This document shows, one piece after another, positions 1 through 13,013 of a stretch of 64,000 nt of DNA. Origin of the DNA: Haloplanus sp. HW8-1 (GTDB lineage Archaea; Halobacteriota; Halobacteria; Halobacteriales; Haloferacaceae); NCBI RefSeq assembly GCF_023703795.1, contig NZ_CP098518.1, positions 744,001-808,000 on the forward strand. The letters run 5' to 3'. Under the pieces are notes generated by a model. The model was given only the letters and a program-made list of their open reading frames with translations, did not search any database and was not told the origin of the DNA. The position numbers were made by a program, and so were the translations under genes. Numbering within the stretch: the first letter of the stretch is position 1; every line of letters starts with the position of its first letter.

Positions 1-2
1 AA

Positions 3-152
3 GATAATAAGTGGACAGCGGGCGAAACGATTTCGTTTCGAATTGCTGTCGGAGGGTGTGACTTCAGAAAGCCTGAGAACTCTGAGTTAGACGTTCTAGT
101 AATACATACACCATCGAATAAAATATTGATTGAAGAACACTTTTCTGTTTGA
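3..152 (+). CDS. C-terminal tail of a type IV pilin-like protein (partial)
   Basis: The frame is open from the window edge to TGA at 150-152 and gives 49 residues. It includes a Trp-Thr-Ala-Gly-Glu turn and a strand ending in Val-Leu-Val-Ile-His-Thr-Pro-Ser. That pattern resembles the C-terminal beta-strands of haloarchaeal type IV pilins and archaellin-like proteins, where a WxAGD turn precedes a V-x-V-x-H-x-P-S strand. The signature N-terminus lies outside the window, so the family call rests on the tail alone. Third-position G+C is lower than in the rest of the window, as in the neighbouring accessory genes. It could instead be the tail of another secreted beta-rich protein. Confidence 0.45.
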   Translation, partial: DNKWTAGETISFRIAVGGCDFRKPENSELDVLVIHTPSNKILIEEHFSV

Positions 153-248
153 TTAACCGAGTTTCTGTATAGGTTCTTTATACTGAGCGACCCGGAGGGA
201 GCGAAGAATGGGTATGTGAACCCTTCTATGACACCCTATGTATGTTTG
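153..248. other. AT-rich spacer
   Basis: No coding frame is convincing here. The stretch is AT-rich and separates the pilin-like tail from the inverted-repeat element that begins at 249. Confidence 0.4.
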
Positions 249-334
249 CTATAGTAGCGATTGAAACTGGTTGCTCAACCGATCGGATGCCGTACTGCGA
301 TCCGCTGTGTAATGATGTTCAATCGCTACTATAG
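249..334. repeat. 86-bp element bounded by perfect 17-bp inverted repeats
   Basis: The left arm (249-265) reads CTATAGTAGCGATTGAA and the right arm (318-334) is its exact reverse complement, with 52 bp between. The interior has no convincing gene. The shape fits a miniature inverted-repeat element (MITE) or the paired ends of a lost insertion sequence. I see no clear flanking target duplication. The right arm overlaps the 3' end of the minus-strand membrane-protein gene and encodes its last codons and stop, so insertion may have reset that terminus. A bidirectional terminator is a weaker alternative, because the loop is long and there is no T-run. Confidence 0.6.
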
Positions 335-771
335 TGAGTTTGATTTCCCTGTTCTTCCATGCTACAGGCGTCACATGAACTCCCTGAACGGCTGTAGAGA
401 AGTCCTGCAAAGAACACGACACTTACGATACCGAAGAGGGGTCGTAACGGGTCGAAATACGTCATCAGTGCGGAGCTGCTGAACAAGGCGAGCAGAAACG
501 CATTACAGATTGGACAGCCGAATGCCAGAAATCCCACCACTGTTCCTGCAGTAGCTGTCTTCTCGTCATTGCGCTGGTTGTTGGTTCGTTGGAAGGTGTA
601 GACTCCCAAGAAGGCCGCAGTAGTGGTGAGAAAGAGATAATCCAGCGGCGTTCGTGGTACCTGCCGAATGTAGAGAGAATTCGGAATCAAGCCCGTGACA
701 ATCCCAAAGAGCACGAACGCACCGGCACTGATGGTTACTGCTTTCAGGTAACGTCTTGATGACGATCGCAT
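319..771 (-). CDS. Four-helix membrane protein with an intramembrane GCPxC motif
   Basis: This 150-residue protein has hydrophobic segments at about 10-30, 43-60, 74-98 and 108-126. A Gly-Cys-Pro-Ile-Cys motif (85-89) sits in the third helix and a C-terminal Cys-x2-Cys is at 133-136. Cysteine pairs placed like this in small membrane proteins suggest metal or thiol chemistry; that is inference, since I cannot name the family. The protein at 28489-29052 has a comparable CCGP motif in a matching helix. The last codons and stop come from the right arm of the inverted-repeat element, so the native C-terminus may be altered. A TATA-like TTTATT lies about 40 bp upstream of the ATG. Confidence 0.65.
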   Translation of the reverse strand: MRSSSRRYLKAVTISAGAFVLFGIVTGLIPNSLYIRQVPRTPLDYLFLTTTAAFLGVYTFQRTNNQRNDEKTATAGTVVGFLAFGCPICNAFLLALFSSSALMTYFDPLRPLFGIVSVVFFAGLLYSRSGSSCDACSMEEQGNQTHYSSD

Positions 772-885
772 TCCTCTCCCTGTTTCGATCTCCGGTCAAT
801 AAAGCAGACCGGCTCTTTGCTCGTTCGTAGAAAAGCTGATTCGGTTTCGTGGGAGCTCCGCGTTGTTGTTCATGGCAACGACACG

Positions 886-900
886 TTTGGTGTGACCAAA
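886..900. promoter_or_regulatory. Palindromic operator candidate TTTGGT-N3-ACCAAA
   Basis: A perfect 6-3-6 inverted repeat lies about 40 bp upstream of the HTH-membrane regulator start at 939. It is well placed for autoregulation near the promoter. Binding is inferred from symmetry and position only. Confidence 0.4.
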
Positions 901-938
901 TCGTCGCTTCTTTGCAGACGAACTCGTAATATGGGCAT

Positions 939-1580
939 ATGACGACGGGGGAAAATAGCCAGTCTGCAGCCCTCTTGGAGTTTTTCGCAGACGACTACTC
1001 TCGGGAAATCTTGCTCGCTGCTGATGAAACCCCCAAGACGGCGAAAGAGCTCAGTCAGCGATGTGATGCGTCGTTGGCGACAATCTACCGTCGTATCTCC
1101 ACCCTACAGGAACACGGTCTCGTCAGGGTCCATTCGACGATCGGTTCTGGTGGCGAACACAAACAACGGTTCGAGACGACAATCGAAACGCTCCACGTCG
1201 CCATTTCCGACGGTGAGCTCGAACTGTCCGTCGAAACACGGGACGAACTCGCCGACAACTTCACCAGACTCTGGAAGAATTTCCGCGAGAATATGATTAG
1301 CATCCCGATTATAGTAATAAAGCTGATCGCGCTCTCGCTGAGTCTCTCTGTTGCGTATCTTGCGTTCTATGCGTATCGCCGGAGTGAAAGCAGTCCGATG
1401 TTCTATGTTTCGATCGGGTTCGTCTTTATCGGAATTGGCGCGGTTTGTGAAGGACTCATTCTCAATACGTTCAACACCTCGCTATTTTCAGCCGCGCTCG
1501 TTCAAGCGGTACTCGTCTCTGTTGGGATGTTGCTGATTCTGCGATCTATTATGCTTGATCCAGAACAACAGAACATCTAG
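939..1580 (+). CDS. Membrane-bound winged-HTH regulator (HTH fused to three-helix domain)
   Basis: This 213-residue protein has a winged-helix domain at about 15-100 of the haloarchaeal ArsR/MarR-like type, with a recognition helix around SLATIYRRISTL. Three hydrophobic helices follow at about 120-145, 150-175 and 180-203. It is likely a one-component regulator tethered to the membrane. The same two modules are separate overlapping genes at 42672-43055 (HTH) and 42400-42675 (three-helix, DUF7521-like), so this is the fused form. A palindrome lies upstream at 886-900. The stop TAG is immediately followed, in the same frame, by a truncated transposase. The ligand is unknown. Confidence 0.75.
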   Translation: MTTGENSQSAALLEFFADDYSREILLAADETPKTAKELSQRCDASLATIYRRISTLQEHGLVRVHSTIGSGGEHKQRFETTIETLHVAISDGELELSVETRDELADNFTRLWKNFRENMISIPIIVIKLIALSLSLSVAYLAFYAYRRSESSPMFYVSIGFVFIGIGAVCEGLILNTFNTSLFSAALVQAVLVSVGMLLILRSIMLDPEQQNI

Positions 1581-2801
1581 CAGAACGCCTACAGTATCAT
1601 CAAAGCCCGGGACGCGGATGTCGCAGTCCCGCGGAACCCAGAACGCCATCTTCCATCTCACGGTGACGAAGAGGACGAATCGGACCCAGACGATCAAGCT
1701 GTCCTCAACGAAGCAGCAACAATTACGGAGCACGTCAGTCGCGTTGTCTTCCCGGCATTCTCACTGGATCGAGGTGAGGGCTGTGAGATTCACGAGAACG
1801 CTTACTGGGACTTACAGACGTATCTCGGACTTCGTGAGCGCCTCGCGGCCAACGAGGGCGCTCGGAGCTTCACCTACGAGTCGACTCGTGAGCGGACACC
1901 GTTAGGTCACTCCCATCGAGAACACATTCGTGACCTCTCAATCGCGAAGATCCGCGAGATGTACCGACAGGCCGTCAACAGGCTCCTGGGCGAAGTCGCG
2001 GAGACTGAGGAGTTCTTCCGAGCCGGAATCATCGCCATCGATATCACCGAAGCAGACCCTTTCACTGGTGATAGAACGGGCCACGAAGACGAAATCATCG
2101 GCACGAAGGAGAAAACTGACGAGTACGCCTACCAGTGGGCCACCGTCCAGTTAGTAGGGAATGCCGTGCCGATTGTGCTAGACGCACGGCCAGTTCGGAA
2201 GGGAGAGTCCCGCTTAGAAATCGTTGAGGACCTCTTGAATTCAGCCGAGGAGCTGGTTCACGTCGATAACGTACTGATGGACCGGGAGTTCGACAGCCAG
2301 CACGTCTTAGAGATGCTCAGCCAGCGTGGCCTGTCGTACGTCGTTCCCAAGCGGATGCAGACCAGCGAGAAAGCGCAGGCCAACCGGTTGCTCCAACGAG
2401 ATCGGGATCGATACGAGACCGACCGGAAGCTCCACCTCGGGAAGAACGAATGGCACGAGACGACGCTGATCTACCGCCGGAAAGAGAACACTGAGCACGA
2501 GGATCACCGGCAGTACTCGGTGTTTATGACGAATCGCAGTAGTGGGTTCCTTACCGAGTACGGCTATCGCTGGGAGATCGAAAGTGGCTACAAATCGATC
2601 AAGCGGTTCATGGCCGCAACGACGTCGAAAGACTTCGGTCTCCGGTTCTTTTACTTCGCGTTCGCGTGTCTGCTGTACTCGATCTGGCGAGCGGTGGACC
2701 TGCTTGTGCAGGTCGAATTGACTGGTGAATACGAACACTCGCCAATTGTGACGGCCGACAACACGCTGACGCTGTTGAAGAAGGAAACCGGAATCGGATA
2801 G
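1581..2801 (+). pseudogene. IS4-type transposase, 5'-truncated
   Basis: The frame is open right after the TAG of the upstream regulator and runs 406 codons, but its first ATG is at 1959, so the N-terminus is missing. DDE features are visible: the segment with Ile-Ala-Ile-Asp-Ile-Thr near 2030 holds the first catalytic Asp, Met-Asp-Arg-Glu-Phe near 2278 fits the second, and Tyr-Arg-Trp-Glu-Ile-Glu-Ser near 2570 fits the Y-x2-R-W-x-I-E signature of IS4-like enzymes. The junction at 1580/1581 looks like a deletion or insertion breakpoint that removed the start of the element. It is probably inactive unless an internal start is used. A second, more degenerate copy lies inverted at 3037-3586. Confidence 0.8.
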
Positions 2802-2950
2802 TGACGGGACTCTCCCCGTGGTAGCGCGGCGTCTGAGTGGCAACGCTACCGGAAGTCGCCGAAATTCGCGTATACGGTTGTCAGTTCAACAAGCATGGCC
2901 GTTTGGAGAGCAATCTGAGTTAGTTTCGGTTCACTGAATCGGCCGATACT

Positions 2951-3036
2951 ACGCATCACAGCCCCGCTAAACCCGCTGTGGTCTCAACTTCCACGGCACC
3001 CGTGGAAGAGACTACGCGAGTGGGGCTGTAATGCGT
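2951..3036. repeat. Palindromic junction between two inverted IS copies
   Basis: The outer arms 2951-2968 and 3019-3036 match as an inverted repeat at 16 of 18 positions (core CAGCCCC/GGGGCTG). An inner perfect 9-bp hairpin is formed by 2988-2996 and 3000-3008, with a 3-base loop. The structure sits between the end of the plus-strand transposase and the minus-strand remnant. It is therefore best read as the right ends of two copies facing each other. Confidence 0.6.
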
Positions 3037-3586
3037 GGGTCCAGCTGAATCGACGAGTGGACACTGCCCACTGGGAGGCGTATCCGTCGGTCTGCTCTTA
3101 CGTCTCGATGCTTTCGGCGTCGTGGCCCGTTCTATCACCGGTGGGCGAATCTACTTCGGTGATATCGATGGCGATGATTCCGGCTCGGACGAACTCTCTA
3201 TCTCCGTGACTTCGCTCAGGAGTCTGATGGCCCGTCGGTACATCTCGTGAATCTCTGATACCGAGGGATCGCGAATATACTCGCGGTGGGCGTGACCCAA
3301 CGGCGTCCGGTTTCGAGTCGATTCGTAGGTGAAGCTACGAGCACCCTGATTAGTGGCTAGGTTCTCACGGATCCCCTCTGCAAGCCCCAGTAGGCCACTC
3401 CGAGACCGTGCGAACGTCCGATTCTATTCCTCCTGTTGATGTCCGATCGTAGAACGGCGTTGAAGCGAACGCTGGCCACTCGATATGCGAGTGTCGGGCG
3501 ATCCGTCGAAAGACGGTTCGGCGCGATCTATGGCTTGAAAACACGTCTGTAACCGAGTGATCAGGACGGCACAAACGATTCGACAT
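3037..3586 (-). pseudogene. Second, inverted and degenerate copy of the same transposase
   Basis: Reverse-complemented, 3037-3350 matches the plus-strand transposase around 1860-2150: both encode a Thr-Tyr-Glu-Ser-Thr-Arg stretch, then Gly-His-x-His-Arg-Glu and a Met-Tyr-Arg-x-Ala segment, followed by a Tyr-Ala-x-Gln-Trp-Ala-like stretch. The copy carries frameshifts, in-frame stops and internal deletions. Its 5' part (ATG at 3586) keeps an N-terminal region of about 50 codons that the first copy lacks. The C-terminal half of the gene is gone. It is a dead element. Together the two copies suggest an inverted double insertion followed by deletions. Confidence 0.7.
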
Positions 3587-3748
3587 TTACCAATACGAAT
3601 GTGCCGGGATGGAACGGGACTACAAGACCACCAGAAGACCCCTATGGCACTTTCCCGCAGAATCTACGGCTGAAATGCTATGGCGAGAACAGCAGCGATC
3701 CCCCACGATCAAAGGCTTTTAGTGACAAACCGAGTATTATCGATTTGT

Positions 3749-3859
3749 ATGACGAGCTCGCTACTCGGGAAGATCACGGATACGCTGTTCGGAACTCAGT
3801 CGGATCCAGACGGCGACTGCTGTGGCGTCGAGATCGAAGAAGTCGACGACGGGGAATAA
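3749..3859 (+). CDS. 36-residue Cys-Cys mini-protein ahead of arsR
   Basis: ATG at 3749 and TAA at 3857-3859 give 36 residues with an Asp-Gly-Asp-Cys-Cys-Gly-Val-Glu-Ile-Glu core and an acidic end. A TATA-like GCTTTTAG lies about 35 bp upstream, and the gene stops 6 bp before the ArsR start, so it is the first gene of the arsR-permease operon. Vicinal cysteines bind As(III) and soft metals in many proteins, so a chaperone or sensor role is plausible but unproven. The small size leaves some chance that it is not translated. Confidence 0.55.
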   Translation: MTSSLLGKITDTLFGTQSDPDGDCCGVEIEEVDDGE

Positions 3860-3865
3860 CGAAAC

Positions 3866-4246
3866 ATGGCTGATTCGGTTCCAGAATCAACACGACAGAC
3901 CCTTGATCGCCTCTACGATGATCCGGAAGACCGTCTCACGTCGCTGTTCGAACTGACACCCGACGACACGGAGATCGAAGCGACGCAAGCGGTCTTCAAA
4001 GCCCTCTCGAACGAGCACCGGATCCGAATCCTCGAAGCGCTCAGAGACGGGGAACTGTGTGCCTGTGAAATCCAGGTCGTTCTCGATGCACCCCAGTCGA
4101 CCGTCGCGAGCCACCTCCGTGAACTCAAAGACGCCGGACTCGTCAACACGCGTCGACAGGGAAAGTGGACGTATTACCGCATCGGTGATACGGCAGTCCT
4201 CCAGTTGCTCGATATCGCGACCGCACTTGCGGAGGAGACAGCGTGA
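3866..4246 (+). CDS. ArsR-family metalloregulator
   Basis: This 126-residue protein has a winged-HTH core at about 40-120. The Glu-Leu-Cys-Ala-Cys-Glu motif at 63-68 matches the ELCxC(D/E)L metalloid site at the start of the recognition region in classical ArsR/SmtB proteins, where As(III) or Sb(III) binding releases DNA. An N-terminal extension of about 35 residues precedes the core. It overlaps the downstream permease by 4 bp (GTGA), which implies coupled translation. It is expected to repress its own operon. Confidence 0.88.
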   Translation: MADSVPESTRQTLDRLYDDPEDRLTSLFELTPDDTEIEATQAVFKALSNEHRIRILEALRDGELCACEIQVVLDAPQSTVASHLRELKDAGLVNTRRQGKWTYYRIGDTAVLQLLDIATALAEETA

Positions 4247-5193
4247 TTCCGTCGGGTATCGAGACGGCGTTGCTCGATTCCTGGAACTACTTCCTCCATC
4301 TGGTGACGATTCTCGCTCCGCTGTTCATCGGGGCCTCGTTCCTCGTTGGGCTCGTCGAGGAGTATCTGCCGCCCGAGAAGGTCGAGGCGATGCTCCGGAA
4401 GCGAAATCGCGGGAGCGGGAACGTCGCAGCGGCGGGGCTGGGTGCCGTGACGCCGTTTTGCTCGTGTTCGACCGTTCCAGTCCTTGCCGGGTTGCTCGGT
4501 GCTGGTGCCCCGCTCGGACTGTCGTTTTCGTTCCTGCTGGCGTCTCCCATCGTCAACGAGATCGCGGCGTTCCTGTTGTTGGGACTGTTCGGTGTGGAAA
4601 TCACGGCGATCTATCTCGTCTCCGCACTGGTCGCCGCGATCGTCGGCGGGGTCGTTATCGACACGTTCGATCTCGGTCACTTGGTCAAGGACGTGCGGAT
4701 CACGACGAACGATCGAACAGTCGCGACGGACGGGGGAATCGCATCGTGTTCGTGCTCAAGTAGTGTCCAGACGACGAAGAGCCACCGCGAACACGTTGAA
4801 ACCGCTGCCGGGGGTGCGTGGTCGTTCTTCAAGGATACGTTCCCGTATCTACTGCTCGGGATGACGCTCGGTGCGCTGATTCACGGAGCAGTTCCTGCTT
4901 CGTGGCTCCAGCAAGTCGCCGGAAACCCGCTGGCGGTCCCGTTGGCCGCACTCGCAGGCGCACCGCTGTACGTCAGTATGGCAGGAATGCTCGGCATCGC
5001 TGCCCCACTCGTCGACCAAGGCGTTCCGATTGGGACCGTCATCGCGTTCGTCGTCGGTGGTGCAGGAGTCAGTATTCCGAACCTGATTCTTCTCAACAAA
5101 CTCTTCGAGCGGAAACTCCTCGTTGTCTATGCCGTGACTGTCGTCACGATCGGGACGGTCCTCGGTTACGGGGTGAACTTCCTCTTCGTCTGA
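4243..5193 (+). CDS. ArsP/DUF318-type permease
   Basis: The GTG start at 4243 overlaps the arsR stop. The 316-residue protein has about eight hydrophobic helices and the family-defining Thr-Pro-Phe-Cys-Ser-Cys-Ser-Thr motif at 70-77. ArsP members of this family export trivalent organoarsenicals such as methylarsenite through such cysteines; other members are uncharacterised permeases. A cytoplasmic loop carries an extra Cys-Ser-Cys (169-171) in a Ser-rich stretch. Position behind arsR and a Cys-Cys peptide supports metalloid efflux. Whether the substrate is methylarsenite, arsenite or another soft metal cannot be told. Confidence 0.85.
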   Translation: MIPSGIETALLDSWNYFLHLVTILAPLFIGASFLVGLVEEYLPPEKVEAMLRKRNRGSGNVAAAGLGAVTPFCSCSTVPVLAGLLGAGAPLGLSFSFLLASPIVNEIAAFLLLGLFGVEITAIYLVSALVAAIVGGVVIDTFDLGHLVKDVRITTNDRTVATDGGIASCSCSSSVQTTKSHREHVETAAGGAWSFFKDTFPYLLLGMTLGALIHGAVPASWLQQVAGNPLAVPLAALAGAPLYVSMAGMLGIAAPLVDQGVPIGTVIAFVVGGAGVSIPNLILLNKLFERKLLVVYAVTVVTIGTVLGYGVNFLFV

Positions 5194-5327
5194 TCGAATG
5201 ACGCGACGGTCGAATTTTCCAACGACTTCAGCAGATAGAACCGTTTGGGGCTTCGTAACGCAACCGACAAAGGAGAGTGTGTGTGTGTCGATGCGAAATC
5301 CTCCAACCCGCGCGACGGCCCACGTAC

Positions 5328-5771
5328 TCAGATCTGGGGTTCAACTCCGTCGAAGAGGTCGGTCACGCGTCGTTCGATCTCGTCGCGGATGCGACCGACC
5401 TCAGCAGCCGACTTCCCGTCCGGGTCGTCAAGGTTCCAGTCGCGGTTCTCGCCCGCCCATCCCGCGGGACAGACGCCGTCGGTCGAACAGCCCATCGTGA
5501 TGACGTAATCGCTTTCCTGTGTCTCCTCGAACGTGATCTCCCGTGGGGTCCGCCCCGAGAGATCGATTCCCACTGCGTGCATCGCCCGGACGACCTGGTC
5601 GTGGACGTGGTCGGCAGGTCGCGTTCCGCCAGTGATGAGTTCGATTGCGTCCTTAAGTCCTCGCTGTTCGACTTCTCGCTGTGCGAACGCGTAGGCCATC
5701 TGCGAGCGGCCTGCGTTCTGCACGCAGACGAAGGCGATTCTCAACGGATCGGATTCTGTGTTCTCAGTCAT
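5328..5771 (-). CDS. arsC: Arsenate reductase, low-molecular-weight phosphatase fold
   Basis: This 147-residue protein opens with the P-loop Cys-Val-Gln-Asn-Ala-Gly-Arg-Ser (catalytic Cys16). Cys95 and Cys101 lie in a Met-Gly-Cys-x5-Cys segment, followed by Asp-Trp-x-Leu-Asp-Asp-Pro, the general-acid loop. The three cysteines match the thioredoxin-coupled ArsC mechanism, in which arsenate is bound by the first Cys and a disulfide relay runs through the other two. It is the last gene of the minus-strand operon and overlaps its paralogue by 4 bp. Arsenite produced here would be exported by the ACR3 pump encoded upstream. Confidence 0.87.
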   Translation of the reverse strand: MTENTESDPLRIAFVCVQNAGRSQMAYAFAQREVEQRGLKDAIELITGGTRPADHVHDQVVRAMHAVGIDLSGRTPREITFEETQESDYVITMGCSTDGVCPAGWAGENRDWNLDDPDGKSAAEVGRIRDEIERRVTDLFDGVEPQI

Positions 5772-6232
5772 ATGTTGTGTAGTGTGCGACGCTCCGCCCG
5801 TGTCGGCAGATCGTCGAAGAGTTCGATCACCTGCTGTTCGATTTCGGTACTGATCGCCCAGACCGACTCCCGATCGGAGCCTACTGGGTCGACGAGCCCC
5901 CAGTCTCGAACGACGACCCCGGGTGGAATGCCCTCAATCGACAGTTCACAGCCCATCAATACGACAAACTCGCACGCCTCAAGCGCATCACGGGTGATCT
6001 TCGTCGGTGACCGGTCGGATAAGTCGTAGCCTTTCTCAGCCATCACCTCTATGACGCTCGGATGGATCGCGTCAGCGGGATCGGTCCCACCAGAAACGAC
6101 CTCGATGTCACTTCGATTCTGAACCTGAACTTGGGTTTCGGCGAGCGCGGCGGCGATCTGACTCCGGCCTGCGTTTTCGACGCAGACGAACCCGAGGCGA
6201 ATCGGATCGGGGATGTCTGTGTGTGGTGCCAT
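5768..6232 (-). CDS. ArsC-like LMW phosphatase lacking the third cysteine
   Basis: This 154-residue paralogue of the downstream ArsC has the P-loop Cys-Val-Glu-Asn-Ala-Gly-Arg-Ser (Cys17), Cys95 in Met-Gly-Cys and the Asp-Trp-Gly-Leu-Val-Asp-Pro loop. The position of the resolving cysteine is Ile/Pro (GIPPG). The standard three-Cys relay is thus incomplete, so the protein may use another thiol or act as a phosphatase, a decoy or a partner of the true ArsC. It begins 15 bp after the acr3 stop and overlaps the next gene. Catalysis is not predicted with confidence. Confidence 0.78.
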   Translation of the reverse strand: MAPHTDIPDPIRLGFVCVENAGRSQIAAALAETQVQVQNRSDIEVVSGGTDPADAIHPSVIEVMAEKGYDLSDRSPTKITRDALEACEFVVLMGCELSIEGIPPGVVVRDWGLVDPVGSDRESVWAISTEIEQQVIELFDDLPTRAERRTLHNI

Positions 6233-6247
6233 CGGTGTGTCCTCTCG

Positions 6248-7414
6248 TCAGTCGTCTTCGGCGGGCGGTGTGGAAGAAGACGTGCCGAGCTGTCCGGTCG
6301 TGGCACCACTCCAGTCGAACTTGTGCTGGAAGTACAGGGCGAGGTTGACCAGCGCCAACAGGACAGGCACCTCGATGAGCGGGCCGACGACGGTCGTGAA
6401 CGCGACACCGGAGCCGACACCGAACACCGCGACGGCGACCGCGATCGCGAGCTCGAAGTTGTTCGAGGCGGCGGTGAACCCGATGGCCGTCGTGGTCGAG
6501 TAGTCCGCGCCGATGCCCTTGCCCATCCCGAAGCTCACGAGGAACATCACCACGAAGTAGATCGTCAGCGGGACGGCGATCAGGAGCACGTCACCGGGCG
6601 AGGCGACGATGTTCTCGCCTTGCGTGGCGAACATCACGATAACCGTAAAGAGGAGCGCGACGAGTGTGAGTGGGTCGATCTTCGGGACCAAGGTCTCGTC
6701 GTACCACTCCTGGCCTTTGGTACGTGTGCCGACGTACCGCGTCAGGAATCCGCCGACGAAGGGGATGCCGAGGAAGATAACGATCGCCTGGAACACCTGG
6801 ATCGGCGTCACGTTGAACGCCTCGATGCCCGCGACGAGCGTCTCCGTCCCGAGCAGTGGCGGGAGGAACAGCCCGAAGAACCAGACGTAGACACCATACG
6901 TGATGATCTGGAAGAGGCTGTTGAACGCCACCAGCCCGGTAACGTACTCGGTCGAGCCCTCTGCGAGTTCGTTCCAAACGAGCACCATCGCGATGCAGCG
7001 GGCCATCCCGATGAACACGAGCCCGAGGAAGAACTCCGGGCGAGCAGGCAGGCCGGGAACCAGTCCGCTGAAGAAGATCACGGCGAGTCCGAACATGAGC
7101 GTCGGGCCGATCAGCCAGTTCTGGACGAGGCTCAACCCGAGGACGCGCCAGTTGCTGAACACTGCGCGAAGTTGCGAGTAATCGGCCTTCGCCAGCGGCG
7201 GATACATCATAGCGATGAGCCCGATTTCGACGAGGTGGAAGTCCTGTATCGGCTGGGTTACCGACGGGGCGACGAATCCGAGTCCCACGCCGACGGCCAT
7301 CGCACCGAGGATCCAGACGGTGAGGTACTTATCGAGGAAGTCCATCGACCGCGGGTCGCCACAGCTCTCACAGTCGCAGTTCGAGCCGTGGTCGTGGGCC
7401 TCGACGTTACTCAT
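6248..7414 (-). CDS. acr3: ACR3-family arsenite efflux permease
   Basis: This 388-residue protein has ten predicted helices, typical of ACR3 (bile acid/arsenite/riboflavin superfamily), which exports As(OH)3 using the membrane potential. The conserved family cysteine lies in the helix reading Gly-Met-Ala-Arg-Cys-Ile-Ala-Met. The first 20 residues are unusual: His-Asp-His-Gly is followed by cysteines at 13, 15 and 18, a soft-metal-binding look absent from most ACR3 proteins. It overlaps arsR by 8 bp upstream, and ArsC-like genes follow, giving a complete arsenate-to-arsenite-to-export operon. Confidence 0.92.
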   Translation of the reverse strand: MSNVEAHDHGSNCDCESCGDPRSMDFLDKYLTVWILGAMAVGVGLGFVAPSVTQPIQDFHLVEIGLIAMMYPPLAKADYSQLRAVFSNWRVLGLSLVQNWLIGPTLMFGLAVIFFSGLVPGLPARPEFFLGLVFIGMARCIAMVLVWNELAEGSTEYVTGLVAFNSLFQIITYGVYVWFFGLFLPPLLGTETLVAGIEAFNVTPIQVFQAIVIFLGIPFVGGFLTRYVGTRTKGQEWYDETLVPKIDPLTLVALLFTVIVMFATQGENIVASPGDVLLIAVPLTIYFVVMFLVSFGMGKGIGADYSTTTAIGFTAASNNFELAIAVAVAVFGVGSGVAFTTVVGPLIEVPVLLALVNLALYFQHKFDWSGATTGQLGTSSSTPPAEDD

Positions 7415-7805
7415 CGCTCACACTCCCCTCGAGGACGGTGACGAGCGCGACAGCCCGGTTAGTAGCACGGTACTTCTTCCACCGGCCATCCTTGCGGCCC
7501 TCGACTAGTCCTGCCTCGACGAGTTTCGAGAGCGCGTGGCTGAGCCCGCTCTCGGTCACGTCGACGACCGCATTCAGTTCACAGACACAGAGTTCTTCTT
7601 GTGCGGCAACGAGCACACGGACCAGGGTGTATCGTGTCTCGTTGGAGAGTGCAGAGAGCACATCGAGTTCAGTGTTCACCTGTGGTGTCCCGAGTGCTGC
7701 TTCGAGGGTGCTGAGTTCGTCGAGGCGGCGCTCGACATCCTCGTTGCGACACTCCCCGAGTTCGTCATCGAGATAGCGTCGAAGTCGTTCTGTAGTTTGC
7801 CCCAT
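7407..7805 (-). CDS. arsR: ArsR-family repressor of the acr3 operon
   Basis: This 132-residue winged-HTH protein has Glu-Leu-Cys-Val-Cys-Glu at 71-76, the metalloid-sensing motif. It is the first gene of the minus-strand operon and overlaps acr3 by 8 bp. A palindrome AATTGA-N8-TCAATT (7814-7833) lies just upstream of the start and over the likely TATA region, as expected for autorepression. It differs from the 3866-4246 ArsR in its N-terminal extension, so the two probably recognise different operators or ligands. Confidence 0.9.
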   Translation of the reverse strand: MGQTTERLRRYLDDELGECRNEDVERRLDELSTLEAALGTPQVNTELDVLSALSNETRYTLVRVLVAAQEELCVCELNAVVDVTESGLSHALSKLVEAGLVEGRKDGRWKKYRATNRAVALVTVLEGSVSDE

Positions 7806-7813
7806 CGATATTG

Positions 7814-7833
7814 AATTGAGTAGATCTTCAATT
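7814..7833. promoter_or_regulatory. Candidate ArsR operator
   Basis: A perfect inverted repeat AATTGA-N8-TCAATT starts 9 bp upstream of the arsR start codon and overlaps the AT-rich promoter (CTATTAAT on the minus strand). Location and symmetry fit an ArsR dimer site. The exact sequence has no known match that I can cite. Confidence 0.55.
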
Positions 7834-8394
7834 AATAGTTGCGGTATGGCAAGATATCACTCACACACGTAGGCCAATATGCGAAAAACGACAGTCGAAA
7901 ATATGCGGAACGAATTCCAGTTGAACAGTATTTAAATCTGAATATGGGGGAGAACTCAGTGACCGAATCACAGCGAAGTCGTGCCAGTGAGAGGCCGCAA
8001 GTAGCGTAACGGAACGGAATTCCTCGGTGGCTACGGCAACAAACGGGAGACGCAGACTCCCTCTTTATCCAGGGACAACCATGAGCTGAATCGAATAACG
8101 GGAGATATCTACCAACGAATTCATCCCGATCAGTCTCCCGCTACACCAATCGAGTCGATCGGAGCCGTATGCATTGAGACAGCCAGTCTCACCAACTGCA
8201 TCACCCGTGCGTGAGACTGCTCGTACGGACACTGACCCGTCGACCGTCCCGGATTCGTTGCGTGTCCGCTCGTCGTGCGTGATGGGTCCTGACGCGACCG
8301 ACCGCGCTCCCCCGCGGATGACTCGAATAATCACAACTCCGAGGAGTGTGAAAATCTCGTCCCTTGATGCAGTCACGGAGCGCATCTGCAACAC
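7834..8394. other. Intergenic region between ars operon and SPFH gene
   Basis: This is about 560 bp between divergently transcribed genes. The first 120 bp are AT-rich and should hold the arsR promoter. The rest contains only short frames with poor codon use, including a minus-strand frame of about 109 codons at 8065-8394 that I do not accept. The promoter of the SPFH gene must lie near the right end. No RNA gene is recognisable. Confidence 0.4.
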
Positions 8395-9489
8395 ATGTAC
8401 GACTCGGTCCCGCTGCAGGTTTCCGCCCTCGGGTTCACGATAGTCGGCCTGTTCGTCTTGGTGTTGGCGATAGTGACCGTCTCGCAGATGGTTCGGTTCG
8501 TCGACGCCTACGACAAGCAGGCGCTCACCGTGTTCGGCGAGTATCGGGGGTTGCTCGAACCGGGCATCAACTTCGTTCCGCCGTTCGTGTCACGCACGTA
8601 CACGTTCGACATGCGCACACAGACGATGGACGTGCCCCGACAGGAGGCGATCACGCGGGACAACTCCCCCGTGACGGCGGACGCCGTCGTCTATCTCCGT
8701 GTGATGGATGCGAAGAAGGCGTTTTTGGAGGTCGACGACTACAAGACGGCGGTTTCGAACCTCGCCCAGACCACGCTCCGGGCGGTCATCGGCGACATGG
8801 AACTCGACGACACGCTGAACAAGCGCCAGGAGATCAACGCGCGCATCCGCAAGGAACTGGACGAACCCACCGACGATTGGGGGATTCGCGTCGAGTCGGT
8901 CGAAGTCCGAGAGGTCAATCCCAGCCCCGAGGTGCAGAACGCGATGGAACAGCAGACCGGTGCAGAGCGGAGACGTCGGGCGACGATCCTCGAGGCACAG
9001 GGCGACCGCCGGAGTGCCGTCGAGAAAGCCGAGGGTGACAAGCAGTCGAACATCATCAGAGCACAGGGCGAAAAGCAAAGCCAGATCCTCGAGGCACAGG
9101 GCGACGCGATCTCGACGGTCTTGCGCGCGAAATCCGCGGAGTCGATGGGTGAGCGTGCGATCATCGACAAGGGGATGGAGACGCTCGAAGCGATCGGTCA
9201 GGGGGAGTCGACGACGTTCGTCCTCCCGCAGGAACTCACCTCGCTGGTGGGTCGCTACGGCAAGCACCTCACCGGGAGCGACGTATCGGGCGACGAACAG
9301 CAGCTAGAGAGTCTCCAGTTCGACGCCGAGACGCGCGAACTCGTCGGACTCGACGACATCAAGGAGATACTCGGCGAAATCGACCGAGCGTCGGAGATGG
9401 ATATCGAAGAGTTAGAACAACAGGCCAAGGCAGTCAAGGACGGGGCTCCGAGCGCCGAGAGCGCCGCCTCCACCGGTGATGGAGCATGA
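8395..9489 (+). CDS. SPFH/band-7 (stomatin-like) membrane protein
   Basis: This 364-residue protein has one N-terminal membrane helix (about 13-35), an SPFH domain to about 200, then a coiled coil rich in repeated Glu-Ala-Gln-Gly-Asp/Glu units (195-265), typical of stomatins and flotillins. Such proteins form ring or cage oligomers that organise membrane microdomains and regulate proteases or channels. Archaeal stomatins are often paired with an NfeD protein; none is adjacent here, and the partner gene overlapping by 4 bp encodes a 91-residue protein instead. The acidic C-terminal tail after 340 is low complexity. Confidence 0.88.
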   Translation: MYDSVPLQVSALGFTIVGLFVLVLAIVTVSQMVRFVDAYDKQALTVFGEYRGLLEPGINFVPPFVSRTYTFDMRTQTMDVPRQEAITRDNSPVTADAVVYLRVMDAKKAFLEVDDYKTAVSNLAQTTLRAVIGDMELDDTLNKRQEINARIRKELDEPTDDWGIRVESVEVREVNPSPEVQNAMEQQTGAERRRRATILEAQGDRRSAVEKAEGDKQSNIIRAQGEKQSQILEAQGDAISTVLRAKSAESMGERAIIDKGMETLEAIGQGESTTFVLPQELTSLVGRYGKHLTGSDVSGDEQQLESLQFDAETRELVGLDDIKEILGEIDRASEMDIEELEQQAKAVKDGAPSAESAASTGDGA

Positions 9490-9761
9490 CTGCCGAACGA
9501 AACCCTCCGAGGGGATGGGAGTTGGAAACGGAGCGGACGACGTACGACGAACTCATGGGCCGGGACTACACCACGGTGCTCTATCGACAGGAAGACACCA
9601 GAAACGCGGTGTACATCCACGAGGTGATCAACGGAGACAACGTCTGGGCGTACGCCGTCCACCGGTCGGGACGGGACGGTAACCTCGGTACCGCCGCCGA
9701 CCTAGAGGCGGCAAAACGGATCGCGTTCGCGTTCATGAACGACCCCGTCGCCAGCGCCTGA
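9486..9761 (+). CDS. Conserved small protein coupled to the SPFH gene
   Basis: The ATG overlaps the SPFH stop by 4 bp (ATGA), indicating a two-gene operon. The 91-residue soluble protein has alternating beta-like stretches (TTVLYR, NAVYIHEV, NVWAYAV) and a C-terminal helix ending in the Asn-Asp-Pro-Val-Ala region. There are no Cys residues and no membrane segment. I do not recognise the family; the fold looks like a small alpha/beta unit. A role as cytosolic partner of the stomatin-like ring is suggested only by the coupling. Confidence 0.7.
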   Translation: MTAERNPPRGWELETERTTYDELMGRDYTTVLYRQEDTRNAVYIHEVINGDNVWAYAVHRSGRDGNLGTAADLEAAKRIAFAFMNDPVASA

Positions 9762-10101
9762 CGGCCGCCACACCGTCGACGGCGCTGGATCACACGCACC
9801 GGGATCCCGATCGGACGACCACCGCCGCGGGATGGCCCCGAGAACCCGGTATTCGGTTCGTTTCGCGGTCGGGTGTCCACGGCCCCGCGTAGCGGGCGGA
9901 CGACCCGTCCGCTCGGCGGCAACACCGGCCGTAGTCTCGGAGAGGCGCCGGATCGGTTGGTCCGGTGCCACGAACGGGGCCCTGTGGAACGAGGGCAAAT
10001 ATTTTAATTAGCCGCATCTAATTCATAAGAATGTGTAATACTAATTCACGTTCGGTAACCGCGTACGACGGTTGGTCGGCCGGGGCCGTGAGGTGGCGTC
10101 G
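9762..10101. other. Intergenic region before the multicopper oxidase operon
   Basis: There is no convincing gene. The first 200 bp are GC-rich. The last 100 bp switch to an AT-rich promoter with TATTTTAATT, a palindrome at 10006-10023 and a further CTAATTCA copy at 10041-10048, 23 bp after the first copy at 10018-10025. Confidence 0.5.
10006..10023. promoter_or_regulatory. Palindromic operator candidate AATTAG-N6-CTAATT
   Basis: A perfect 6-6-6 inverted repeat overlaps the probable TATA box about 80 bp upstream of the multicopper oxidase start. The TTAG...CTAA core resembles sites of DtxR/IdeR/MntR-type metalloregulators, which control iron and manganese genes in archaea and bacteria. Half of the site recurs at 10041-10048. 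Regulation by iron or manganese is inferred from this resemblance. Confidence 0.45.
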
Positions 10102-11364
10102 ATGCCGTCGCTGACCTACCCGGACGCCGCAGCGCTCACGAAGCGCCTGGAGGCCCGACTGGTCGAGGGCCTCCGCTCGGAACTCACGGCTACGCGGCGG
10201 TCGGTCCTCGGCGGCCTCGGCTTGGCGGGCGGGGCGACCCTCGCGGGCGTGGGCCGGGCGGACGACGGCGGTCACGCCGGCGGTCAGGACGGCTCGCACG
10301 GCAACTTCGGCGCCGTGGGCGAGTACCGCGACCTGGAGTTCGACCCACACGAGTACCTGCGGCGGTTCAACACGGGCCGCGGCGAGAGCGAGAACGTCCC
10401 ACAGGACGTCTACGAGGAGGACGGTCGGACCGTCCGCGAGTTCACCCTCACCGCCGTCGACACGACGGTCACCATCGCGCCGGGCGTCGAGTTCTCGGCG
10501 TGGGCCTACAACGGGCAGGTGCCCGGGCCGACGCTCCGGGCCGTCGAGGGCGACCTGATTCGCGTTCACTTCGAGAACCTGGGCCGACACGCCCACACCA
10601 TCCACCCCCACCTCCGCAACCTCGATCCGTCGATGGACGGGGTGCCGACGAACGGTCCCGGCGTCCTCGACACCGGCGAGTCCTACACCTACGAGTGGAT
10701 CGCACAGCCGGCCGGCTGTCACTTCTATCACTGCCACTCGCTCCCGCTGAAAGAGCACATCCACCGGGGCCTGTACGGCGCCATCGTCGTCGATCCCGAT
10801 CCGGAGCGGGTGTCCGAGCGGCCCGCGGAGTACTGTGACGCGCATCCCTCGCAGATCACCCCGGCGCTCAGTGCGGACCTCGTCGCCGAAGCGGAGACCC
10901 GCAACCACGCTCACGACGCCAACGACGCCGTCGACGAACTGGTGATGGTGATGAACGGCTTCGACACGAACTTCGACGGCGACAACGAGGTGTACGCCGT
11001 CAACACCCGCGCGTTCGCCTACGGCGTCGGCGACACCGACGGCGAGGGCCACTGGGAGCCCGGCGAGACGAAACACCCGATCCAGGTGGACCGGACGCGC
11101 CGCCAGCGGGTGTACCTGATCAACGCCATCGAGTTCGACCCCATCAACTCCTTTCACACCCACTCGCAGTTCTTCGACTACTACGATCACGGGACGGGAC
11201 TGCGCCCCACCCACGCGACGGTGGATACGGTCATGCAGTGTCAGGCCCAGCGCGGGATCATCGAACTCGACTACGCGTCACACGATCCGGGACTGTACAT
11301 GTTCCACGCTCACCAGTCCGAGTTCGCCGAACTCGGCTGGATGAGCTTCTTCGAGGTGATCTGA
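10102..11364 (+). CDS. Exported multicopper oxidase
   Basis: I prefer ATG 10102 over an upstream TTG. The 420-residue protein has a Tat-like Thr-Arg-Arg-Ser-Val-Leu followed by a hydrophobic stretch (31-50). Copper motifs are Thr-Ile-His-Pro-His (166-170), His-Phe-Tyr-His-Cys-His (207-212), Ser-Phe-His-Thr-His in the C-terminal half and Met-Phe-His-Ala-His (400-404). These HxH pairs fit the trinuclear cluster, but the last segment lacks the usual HCH type-1 Cys; a Cys lies in the first half instead, as in two-domain-type enzymes. The substrate could be Fe(II), Mn(II), Cu(I) or phenolics. It is first in an operon with a ZIP transporter and a cupredoxin, which favours a metal. Confidence 0.85.
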   Translation: MPSLTYPDAAALTKRLEARLVEGLRSELTATRRSVLGGLGLAGGATLAGVGRADDGGHAGGQDGSHGNFGAVGEYRDLEFDPHEYLRRFNTGRGESENVPQDVYEEDGRTVREFTLTAVDTTVTIAPGVEFSAWAYNGQVPGPTLRAVEGDLIRVHFENLGRHAHTIHPHLRNLDPSMDGVPTNGPGVLDTGESYTYEWIAQPAGCHFYHCHSLPLKEHIHRGLYGAIVVDPDPERVSERPAEYCDAHPSQITPALSADLVAEAETRNHAHDANDAVDELVMVMNGFDTNFDGDNEVYAVNTRAFAYGVGDTDGEGHWEPGETKHPIQVDRTRRQRVYLINAIEFDPINSFHTHSQFFDYYDHGTGLRPTHATVDTVMQCQAQRGIIELDYASHDPGLYMFHAHQSEFAELGWMSFFEVI

Positions 11365-12597
11365 ATGACCGACTCGACCGACGGTGGGACGGCCGCCCCA
11401 CGGATCGACCGACCGCTGGGACTGCCACGCTGGGCCGCGGCCGTCCTCCCACTGCTCCTGCTAGCGCTGCTCGCCGGCGGCTTCTTCGCCGCGACGCCGT
11501 TCGCGTCGCTCGACGCCGGCGGCGAACCTCTCCCCGACGTGACGGTGAGCCACACCACCCTGCCCGACGACGAGACGGTGATCCTTCACGTCACGAACAA
11601 CGGCCCGGACGCGGTGACCATCTCGCAGGTGCTCGTCGACGACGCCTACTGGCACTTCGAGGTGCGCGGCGCTGGCGGGGACGCCACGCTCGCGCCACGG
11701 GAGCGCGCCCGTGTCGTCGTCCCCTACCACTGGACTCCGGGGTGGGATCTCGGGTTCGCCCTCGTGCTCTCGGACGGAGCCACGGTCCACCACACGCTCG
11801 TCGCCCCGAGCGAGTCGCCCGGATTGACCGCGGACCTCCTGCTCACGATGGCCGCCATCGGTCTGTTCGTCGGCGTCGTTCCCGTCGCCCTCGGAATGCT
11901 CTGGTTCCCCTTCCTCCGGACGATGAGCGACCGGTGGCTGCACGCCGTCCTCGCGTTCTCCGCGGGCATCCTCGTCTTCCTCGCGATCGACGCCGGGATC
12001 GAGGCCGTCGAACTCGCCGAACGGGTTCCCGGGGCCTTCGAGGGACAGGCCCTCGTCGCGCTGGGCGTCCTCGGGGCGTTCCTGGCGGTGCAGTCCGTGA
12101 GTGCGTGGCGCGAGGCCCGGGCGGAAGACGGCGACGCCCGTGCGGCGAGCGGTCTCCGGGTCGCCTATCTCGTCGCGCTCGGCATCGGCCTCCACAACCT
12201 CGCGGAGGGGCTCGCCATCGGCAGTTCGTTCGCGCTCGGGCGCGTCTCGCTCGGCGCCTTCCTCGTGGTGGGCTTCATGCTCCACAACGTGACCGAGGGA
12301 CCCGCGGTCGTTGCCCCGGTGGCCCGCGGCGAGCGCCCGCTGATTCGACATTTCGCCGGGATGGGCGTCCTCGCGGGCGCGCCGGTGATCCTCGGGGGAT
12401 GGCTCGGCAGCCTCGCGTACTCGCCGACGCTCGGCGCCCTCTTTCTCGCCGTCGGCGTCGGCGCCATCCTCCAGGTCGTCGGAGAGCTTCGGGCCATGAT
12501 CGGTCGAGGCGGGGCGTCCTCGACGGCGCTCAACCTCCTCACGTTCCTCGTCGGACTGGTCGTGATGTACGCCACCGACCTCTTCGTCGCCCTATGA
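11365..12597 (+). CDS. ZIP-family metal transporter with N-terminal extracellular beta domain
   Basis: The gene starts directly after the oxidase stop. The 410-residue protein has one helix at about 24-44, then a 100-residue beta-rich domain (55-150; strands such as TVILHVTNN) that should face outside, then about eight helices. His-Asn-Leu-Ala-Glu-Gly (277-282) and His-Asn-Val-Thr-Glu-Gly (307-312) are the paired metal-binding motifs of ZIP helices IV and V. ZIP proteins import Zn, Fe or Mn. The added outer domain is unusual and could dock the oxidase or cupredoxin. Its cytoplasmic loop lacks a long His cluster. Confidence 0.87.
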   Translation: MTDSTDGGTAAPRIDRPLGLPRWAAAVLPLLLLALLAGGFFAATPFASLDAGGEPLPDVTVSHTTLPDDETVILHVTNNGPDAVTISQVLVDDAYWHFEVRGAGGDATLAPRERARVVVPYHWTPGWDLGFALVLSDGATVHHTLVAPSESPGLTADLLLTMAAIGLFVGVVPVALGMLWFPFLRTMSDRWLHAVLAFSAGILVFLAIDAGIEAVELAERVPGAFEGQALVALGVLGAFLAVQSVSAWREARAEDGDARAASGLRVAYLVALGIGLHNLAEGLAIGSSFALGRVSLGAFLVVGFMLHNVTEGPAVVAPVARGERPLIRHFAGMGVLAGAPVILGGWLGSLAYSPTLGALFLAVGVGAILQVVGELRAMIGRGGASSTALNLLTFLVGLVVMYATDLFVAL

Positions 12598-13013
12598 ACC
12601 GTCGCACCCTCCTTCGACTCGGCGGCGCCGCACTGCTCGGGAGTCTCGCCGGCTGTTCGGCCGGGAGACGGAACGGCCCCCAGGGCGTGTCGATGACCGA
12701 CGGCTTCGCGTACGATCCAGCACGGATCACCGTCCCCGCCGGATCGACGGTCCGGTGGGTGAACGACGACGACGTACGGCATTCCGTGACGGCCTATGCC
12801 AGGGGCGTCCCGGCGGACGCCTCCTACTTCGCAAGCGGCGGGTTCGAGAGCGAACGCGCCGCGCGCGACGACATCGGGGGCGGGCTGATCGCGGCCGGTG
12901 ACGCCTACGAACACACCTTCGGGACGCCGGGCACCTACGACTACTTCTGTGTCCCTCACGAGGGGTCCGGGATGACCGGCCGCGTCGCCGTCCGGGCCGA
13001 CCGACGCGGCTGA
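12594..13013 (+). CDS. Cupredoxin lipoprotein (halocyanin/plastocyanin-like)
   Basis: ATG 12594 overlaps the ZIP stop by 4 bp. The 139-residue protein has an Arg-Arg N-terminus and a lipobox Leu-Ala-Gly-Cys (Cys21), so it should be a Tat-exported lipid-anchored protein. Type-1 copper ligands are visible: His63, Cys119, His122 and Met127. It is a small blue copper protein that could pass electrons from the multicopper oxidase to the respiratory chain, or deliver copper to it. The three genes have almost no spacing and clearly form one transcript. Confidence 0.88.
   Translation: MNRRTLLRLGGAALLGSLAGCSAGRRNGPQGVSMTDGFAYDPARITVPAGSTVRWVNDDDVRHSVTAYARGVPADASYFASGGFESERAARDDIGGGLIAAGDAYEHTFGTPGTYDYFCVPHEGSGMTGRVAVRADRRG

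Follow-up and report, generated by a model that had tools for sequence, protein, structure and literature searches.

In yeast, the exported multicopper oxidase (MCO) Fet3p is paired with the plasma-membrane metal carrier Ftr1p; Fet3 is a three-domain MCO, Ftr1 belongs to a carrier family different from ZIP, and the system serves iron. Here, we describe a three-gene cassette in a 64-kb window, the whole stretch of DNA analysed (C1:744001-808000 of the 3.84 Mb genome of the haloarchaeon Haloplanus sp. HW8-1), which encodes an exported MCO, a membrane metal carrier and a cupredoxin. The carrier has a ZIP fold according to its structural model and Foldseek comparison and is not of the Ftr1 family, although the two systems may work in a similar way. 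The cassette is probably a manganese-repressed module for oxidase-assisted uptake of Mn(II), possibly of Fe, where we infer both the metal and the chemistry from sequence.

Linked MCO and ZIP genes have been described in Nitrososphaera viennensis and related archaea (NVIE_000600/NVIE_000590 and NVIE_026950/NVIE_026940), together with a Fet3-like hypothesis for copper (PMC7785015). The thaumarchaeal MCO1 resembles the present oxidase in its two domains, in a Leu reported for the axial position of the type-1 site and in a directly linked zinc/iron permease gene. In contrast to the present cassette, the available part of that source discusses copper and describes neither DtxR/MntR control nor a third redox gene; the two systems are compared here by published adjacency only. 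A preliminary description of the locus had proposed that an oxidase working with a ZIP carrier would be a design distinct from Fet3/Ftr1. MCO-ZIP pairs and the Fet3/Ftr1 analogy were already in print for ammonia-oxidising archaea, with copper as the metal (PMC7785015). We regard the cassette as a form of oxidase-coupled metal transport and not as a new category.

A plasmid of Arthrobacter sp. FB24 carries a further counterpart, in which an MCO is followed in the same order by a ZIP with the N-terminal domain described below. There, a divergent DtxR-family gene comes first and, unlike in the present cassette, no cupredoxin lies downstream. The Arthrobacter MCO is identical residue for residue over 288 aa to the structure 3GDC, and we found no published function for it. 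A literature search by titles, abstracts and term counts, restricted to open-licence papers and hence weak evidence, returned neither an MCO plus ZIP as an MntR target nor an MCO-ZIP-DtxR/MntR module.

Architecture of the cassette

The following elements were assigned (window coordinates):
10006-10023, no strand: operator palindrome AATTAG-CCGCAT-CTAATT, candidate DtxR/MntR-type operator (exact match, conserved upstream of relatives)
10102-11364, plus strand: two-domain MCO, type C, with a predicted twin-arginine translocation (Tat) signal (Pfam, PDB matches, alignment)
11365-12597, plus strand: divergent ZIP-family metal carrier with N-terminal membrane helix and outer beta-sandwich (model, Foldseek, motifs)
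11428-11826, plus strand: extra transmembrane helix (TM0) and extracytoplasmic beta-sandwich of the ZIP (aa 22-154), candidate oxidase docking site (AlphaFold2, Foldseek)
12594-13013, plus strand: cupredoxin (plastocyanin/azurin-like) lipoprotein (Pfam PF00127, ligands, lipobox)

The MCO stop codon (11362-11364) is followed at a gap of 0 bp by the ZIP ATG at 11365, and the ZIP stop codon, ending at 12597, overlaps the cupredoxin ATG at 12594 by 4 bp. The coordinates thus reproduce exactly the three touching or overlapping genes behind a palindrome that had been claimed in the preliminary description. The likely MCO start is the ATG at 10102; the mechanical open reading frame (ORF) begins at TTG 10072. 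AATTAG-N6-CTAATT occurs nowhere else in the window at up to two mismatches (0.10 expected), and the core common to relatives is TTAG-N6-CTAA at 10008-10021. The palindrome had also been placed over the TATA box, a placement that is plausible, but the box is weak and its position not unique. All catalytic and metal-binding motifs read from the translations were confirmed: H168-P-H170, H210-C-H212, H352-T-H354 and H402-A-H404 in the MCO, HNLAEG and HNVTEG in the ZIP, and the ligands H63, C119, H122 and M127 in the cupredoxin.

The oxidase exceeds the cut-offs of Pfam PF07732 (Cu-oxidase_3) and PF07731 (Cu-oxidase_2), and its nearest PDB structures are 7rab (E=3.5e-110), for which no paper was found in the literature searched, and 3gdc (E=1.9e-73). 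In an alignment of 28 sequences, H165, H168, H170, H210, C211, H212, H219, H352, H354, H402 and H404 are invariant, and these include all eight His of the trinuclear site. Type-1 copper ligands are present only in domain 1 (H165, C211, H219), while the domain-2 motif HAHQ has no Cys; the axial residue is L224, with Leu or Met in relatives. Both membership tests classify the protein as a two-domain MCO of type C, and an arginine pair at aa 32-33 marks its Tat signal.

Conserved linkage of oxidase and carrier

Among 292 haloarchaeal genomes, 40 encode the MCO and 39 the full-length ZIP, and in all 39 of the latter the ZIP follows the MCO on the same strand at a spacing of 3-131 bp. Co-occurrence in sequenced haloarchaea, which the preliminary description had set as a check, therefore links the families far beyond chance. 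We extended the scan to one genome per species for 84,980 species and obtained 80 loci, 49 haloarchaeal and 31 bacterial, the latter from Acidobacteria, Gemmatimonadota, Planctomycetota, Actinomycetota, Deinococcota, Chloroflexota, Verrucomicrobiota, Nitrospinota and others. The MCO lies beside the ZIP at nearly all 80 loci, with exceptions near contig ends. Plasmid records add Alphaproteobacteria, Cyanobacteria and Bacillota; at E<=1e-40, the ZIP is found in 150 records and the MCO in 127, and 74 of the 150 ZIP-bearing records are predicted to be conjugative. Pairwise distances of MCO and ZIP correlate with r=0.87 (permutation maximum 0.24), and the two proteins appear inseparable in evolution. 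Judged by its homologues, the pair is found in archaea and in about eleven bacterial phyla, in many cases on plasmids and usually with a gene for a predicted manganese-type sensor and its target site alongside. We regard the present cassette as the haloarchaeal version of a metal-acquisition cassette that is widespread and moves horizontally.

The patchy distribution (40 of 292 haloarchaeal genomes) is what one might expect if the three genes were neighbours by chance, or were co-transcribed without a joint function. Against this stand the linkage in 39 of 39 haloarchaeal genomes, the recurrence in about eleven bacterial phyla and the correlated divergence, which together leave such an explanation hardly credible; chance neighbourhood itself is ruled out by the 39/39 linkage.

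At three loci of Planctomycetota (L169, L170 and L174), one gene lies between MCO and ZIP; that of L169 encodes a Phenol_MetA_deg-family protein, possibly an outer-membrane component. At locus L075 (genome G278), MCO homology is confined to residues 1-235 of a 684-aa ORF, no ZIP was found and the DtxR gene alongside is intact. This MCO looks like a decayed copy.

A divergent ZIP carrier with an outer beta domain

The carrier scores 23.4 bits against Pfam Zip PF02535 over residues 254-353, below the cut-off of 35.1, and does not reach the NCBIfam ZupT cut-off (49 vs 252 bits), so that its primary structure marks it as a divergent family member at most. Its AlphaFold2 model (predicted local distance difference test, pLDDT, 85) comprises TM0, a beta domain and eight further transmembrane helices (TM), and Foldseek matches it to BbZIP (E=3.3e-6, TMt 0.67). 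Model, Foldseek and alignment agree on the eight-helix ZIP fold of BbZIP/ZupT with HNxxEG-type metal motifs in TM4 and TM5, where H277, N278, E281, H307, N308 and E311 are invariant in 38 aligned sequences. Unlike BbZIP/ZupT, the present protein carries TM0 and the beta domain, and the second (M2) metal site with its bridging Glu (BbZIP E240) is absent: V341 is aligned at this position, and the column contains no Glu in relatives.

The first 155 residues form the extra membrane helix and the beta-sandwich, whose strands span residues 59-145 of the model and most resemble the archaellum stator FlaG/FlaF domains (Foldseek, 6pbk E=6.7e-4, TMt 0.64). PCuAC copper chaperones are also among the nearest folds; metal binding by the domain was considered and rejected, as it has no conserved His/Met/Cys set, and for this reason we prefer a docking role. 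The N-terminal domain is present in all 39 MCO-linked ZIPs and missing from the best ZIP of 37 other haloarchaeal genomes, none of which encodes the MCO (Fisher p ~1e-22, an overstated value since related genomes are not independent). Because domain and MCO are present or absent together, the extra domain goes with the oxidase. The earlier suggestion that it could be the docking site is thus supported by a perfect co-distribution, which stops short of proof.

A variable redox protein in third position

The cupredoxin carries a Tat signal (RR) and an LAGC lipobox. Its score of 62.9 bits against Pfam PF00127 (cut-off 21.2) places it in the plastocyanin/azurin type; it is not an NCBIfam halocyanin (46.4 bits vs a cut-off of 93.8). 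An orthologue lies directly downstream in ~28 of the 39 haloarchaeal genomes, in addition to one divergent form, and a cupredoxin is also the third gene in cassettes of Planctomycetota and Verrucomicrobia. In Rhodococcus, Nocardia and the cyanobacteria Chroococcidiopsis and Gloeocapsa, this position is taken by a Rieske [2Fe-2S] protein, and in Bacillaceae by a TatA gene. The cupredoxin proposed earlier as a cassette partner therefore co-occurs as such in haloarchaea, but the slot is not always filled by a cupredoxin. The exchange of one outer redox protein for another in the same slot suggests a role for an electron carrier in the cassette function, though not everywhere.

Three of the Rieske cassettes (L231, L237 and L239, from Rhodococcus and Nocardia) have no TTAG-N6-CTAA site. 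Instead, TTCGGCATG-type inverted repeats are found upstream of the MCO, perhaps the operator of another regulator.

Operators and the matching regulator

Of 47 haloarchaeal cassettes, 37 have TTAG-N6-CTAA upstream (shuffle mean 0.16, maximum 2), as do 16 of 26 bacterial cassettes (shuffle mean 0.02, maximum 1). The TTAGNCNNNTCTAA core has two sites in the whole Haloplanus genome, one in the cassette promoter and one in that of the 231-aa DtxR-family gene at C1:523038, whose start codon follows 12 bp later; the longer palindrome, at up to two mismatches, occurs in three places, and the reversed control in none. The DtxR-family gene is the first of an operon that also encodes a GDT1-type cation transporter and a LysE protein, and 60 of 60 genomes examined from the family have an orthologue of this regulator gene. 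Elsewhere in the family, the perfect palindrome lies in front of either the regulator-GDT1 operon or a ZnuA-type binding protein, and at many loci a DtxR-family gene directly precedes the MCO. As in MntR regulons, the operator is common to the regulator's own promoter and the target promoter. We conclude that the palindrome is a predicted DtxR-family operator whose matching regulator is encoded in trans. The suggestion of metal control, first made from the DtxR-like palindrome itself, is supported by this regulator and by the conservation of the operator.

In most regulator-led haloarchaeal operons, 18-27 bp separate the operator from the start codon; bacterial sites fall on the spacer, the -10 element or the start of TTGAC promoters. 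These are repressor positions, which make expression under metal shortage, and hence uptake, the likelier sense. From operator placement, the regulator would more likely repress the cassette when metal is plentiful. MntR-type regulators are known to repress importers in response to Mn.

Most genomes of the family share the regulator-GDT1-LysE operon, with the operator upstream of the regulator gene (for example L107:4885-7025, minus strand). At L192 and L195, the haloarchaeal palindrome adjoins PF11449 genes (10TM putative heavy-metal exporter, named arsenic efflux), which suggests that these belong to the same metal regulon.

Manganese and competing assignments

We examined metal selectivity through the regulators, at positions 8, 10, 99, 102 and 103, the metal ligands known to discriminate manganese-type from iron-type members. 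D8 is found in 40 of 41 ungapped sequences, D/E99 in 42 of 43, E102 in 43 of 43 and H103 in 42 of 43; the Met10/Cys102 iron pattern of DtxR/IdeR never occurs in this aligned set of at most 43 regulators. MntR models score best for 10 of 10 cassette-side regulators tested, and solved relatives of the Haloplanus regulator include SloR and ScaR, which are known Mn-responsive regulators. A planctomycete regulator of a different MntR subfamily scores 156.2 bits against the curated MntR cut-off of 153. On plasmids of Pseudosulfitobacter, Sinorhizobium and Shinella, RefSeq names the cassette neighbour mntR, and the promoters of these three cassettes, as well as of two from Planctomycetota, contain another palindrome, TAGC-N4-GCTA. 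Two regulator subfamilies with two operator types at one cassette provide independent support for manganese control. Since the regulators appear to be of the MntR class and not the iron type, Mn is more likely than Fe; iron-type DtxR control is not favoured. Of the two metals, Fe(II) and Mn(II), named as possible cargo in the preliminary description, the regulators thus favour Mn.

Several observations weigh against a manganese uptake module. (i) The haloarchaeal regulators remain below the curated MntR cut-off (212 vs 350 bits). (ii) GDT1 proteins are usually exporters and make an odd partner in a Mn-repressed operon. (iii) Presence of the cassette is not associated with that of the Nramp manganese carrier (24 of 40 genomes with the cassette vs 160 of 252 without, p=0.73), a result that also argues against replacement of Nramp by the cassette. 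(iv) About 10 of the 39 haloarchaea have no cupredoxin, which is thus not obligatory. (v) FeoB and a second DtxR gene lie near the cassette at L188, so that iron is possible. (vi) Many plasmid copies reside within copper, cadmium or heavy-metal islands. (vii) The thaumarchaeal MCO and ZIP genes are modestly induced under Cu limitation (log2 0.81 and 1.33; PMC7785015).

The fifth of these observations bears on iron uptake, in which the MCO would act as a ferroxidase and the carrier would import what it produces, with a ZIP in the place of Ftr1 in a system analogous to Fet3/Ftr1. In its favour are the DtxR-type operator, the general standing of MCOs as classic ferroxidases and two neighbouring genes, one for a VIT1/CCC1-family transporter close to the Arthrobacter cassette and one of the Fur family that follows the Microvirga cassette. 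The MntR-type ligands of the cassette regulators, none of the Met/Cys type, and their best scores with MntR models argue the other way, as does the carrier: the usual cargo of ZIPs is divalent, that of Ftr1 Fe(III). We consider coupled iron uptake unlikely.

The thaumarchaeal expression data agree with copper uptake, as proposed for N. viennensis MCO1, with Cu(I) oxidised to Cu(II) by the MCO and imported by the ZIP, and genes for PCuAC, SCO and P-type ATPases lie near several plasmid cassettes. Here, MntR-type regulators and an operator shared with the GDT1 operon point away from copper, and a copper-dependent enzyme would be a poor tool in copper starvation. This makes a copper importer very unlikely.

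The metal islands, finally, would fit a resistance function, either extracellular detoxification of Mn(II) or Cu(I) by the MCO, through formation of oxide or oxidation of Cu(I), or recovery of a Mn supply blocked by Cd, Zn or Cu. Plasmid copies, mobile and frequently predicted to be conjugative as given above, lie among genes for P-type ATPases, CDF and CadC proteins, and heavy-metal P-type ATPase-like (8 loci) and CDF-like (3 loci) families, named by sequence, are found near haloarchaeal copies. The operator positions imply repression by metal, the opposite of what a detoxification gene requires, and an import-type carrier is always present. A metal-resistance module is quite unlikely.

Proposed mechanism of oxidase-assisted manganese uptake

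In the manganese uptake module that we favour, an MntR-type regulator, encoded elsewhere in the Haloplanus genome and beside the cassette in many others, would act on operators at both promoters. At sufficient cellular Mn(II), the loaded regulator would block the promoter, so that the cassette would be made under shortage of Mn (or Fe). It would then supply the Tat-exported two-domain MCO, the ZIP with its outer beta-sandwich and the redox protein of the outer surface. The oxidase would sit on the beta domain of the ZIP, which would import the metal, most likely divalent Mn, while the cupredoxin, or elsewhere the Rieske protein, would move electrons between oxidase and membrane.

The oxidase may condition the metal at the mouth of the carrier in one of two ways. 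As a filter, it would oxidise Fe(II) or Cu(I) that compete with Mn(II) and so allow a clean import of Mn(II); in a Fet3-like manner, it would oxidise the cargo itself. The filter fits a divalent ZIP better than cargo oxidation, and we put its chances at no more than about one in three. Hand-over of a trivalent metal, M(III), in the Fet3-like manner needs a carrier unlike known ZIPs and is left possible because the position of BbZIP E240 is lost. The heavy-metal resistance genes around plasmid copies suggest that selection may act on the recovery of Mn supply in the presence of toxic metals. More tentatively, and with less confidence than in manganese uptake as such, the cassette could be a pan-prokaryotic, plasmid-mobile Mn importer, with the MCO placed on the ZIP outer domain, a small redox protein completing the circuit and MntR operators specific to each subfamily.

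If this holds, oxidase-carrier coupling, known mainly from Fet3/Ftr1, would have a second, independent form that is ZIP-based and MntR-controlled and that plasmids have distributed among haloarchaea and about eleven bacterial phyla. Uptake of manganese with the help of an oxidase would be new as a principle of metal acquisition. A large set of two-domain laccases, among them the one with the solved structure 3GDC, would gain a role, and many proteins annotated only as 'multicopper oxidase domain-containing protein' or 'metal transporter' a testable function. Why Mn uptake should need an oxygen-using copper enzyme would then become testable in genetically tractable hosts.

Genomic surroundings

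Close to the cassette, at window positions 6248-7805 on the minus strand, lie an ACR3-type arsenite efflux gene and an overlapping upstream gene for an ArsR/SmtB-family regulator. Window positions 1-10000 have a G+C content of 51-63%, compared with ~68-70% in the remainder of the window; this low-G+C stretch, which reaches the edge of the cassette, may have been acquired.

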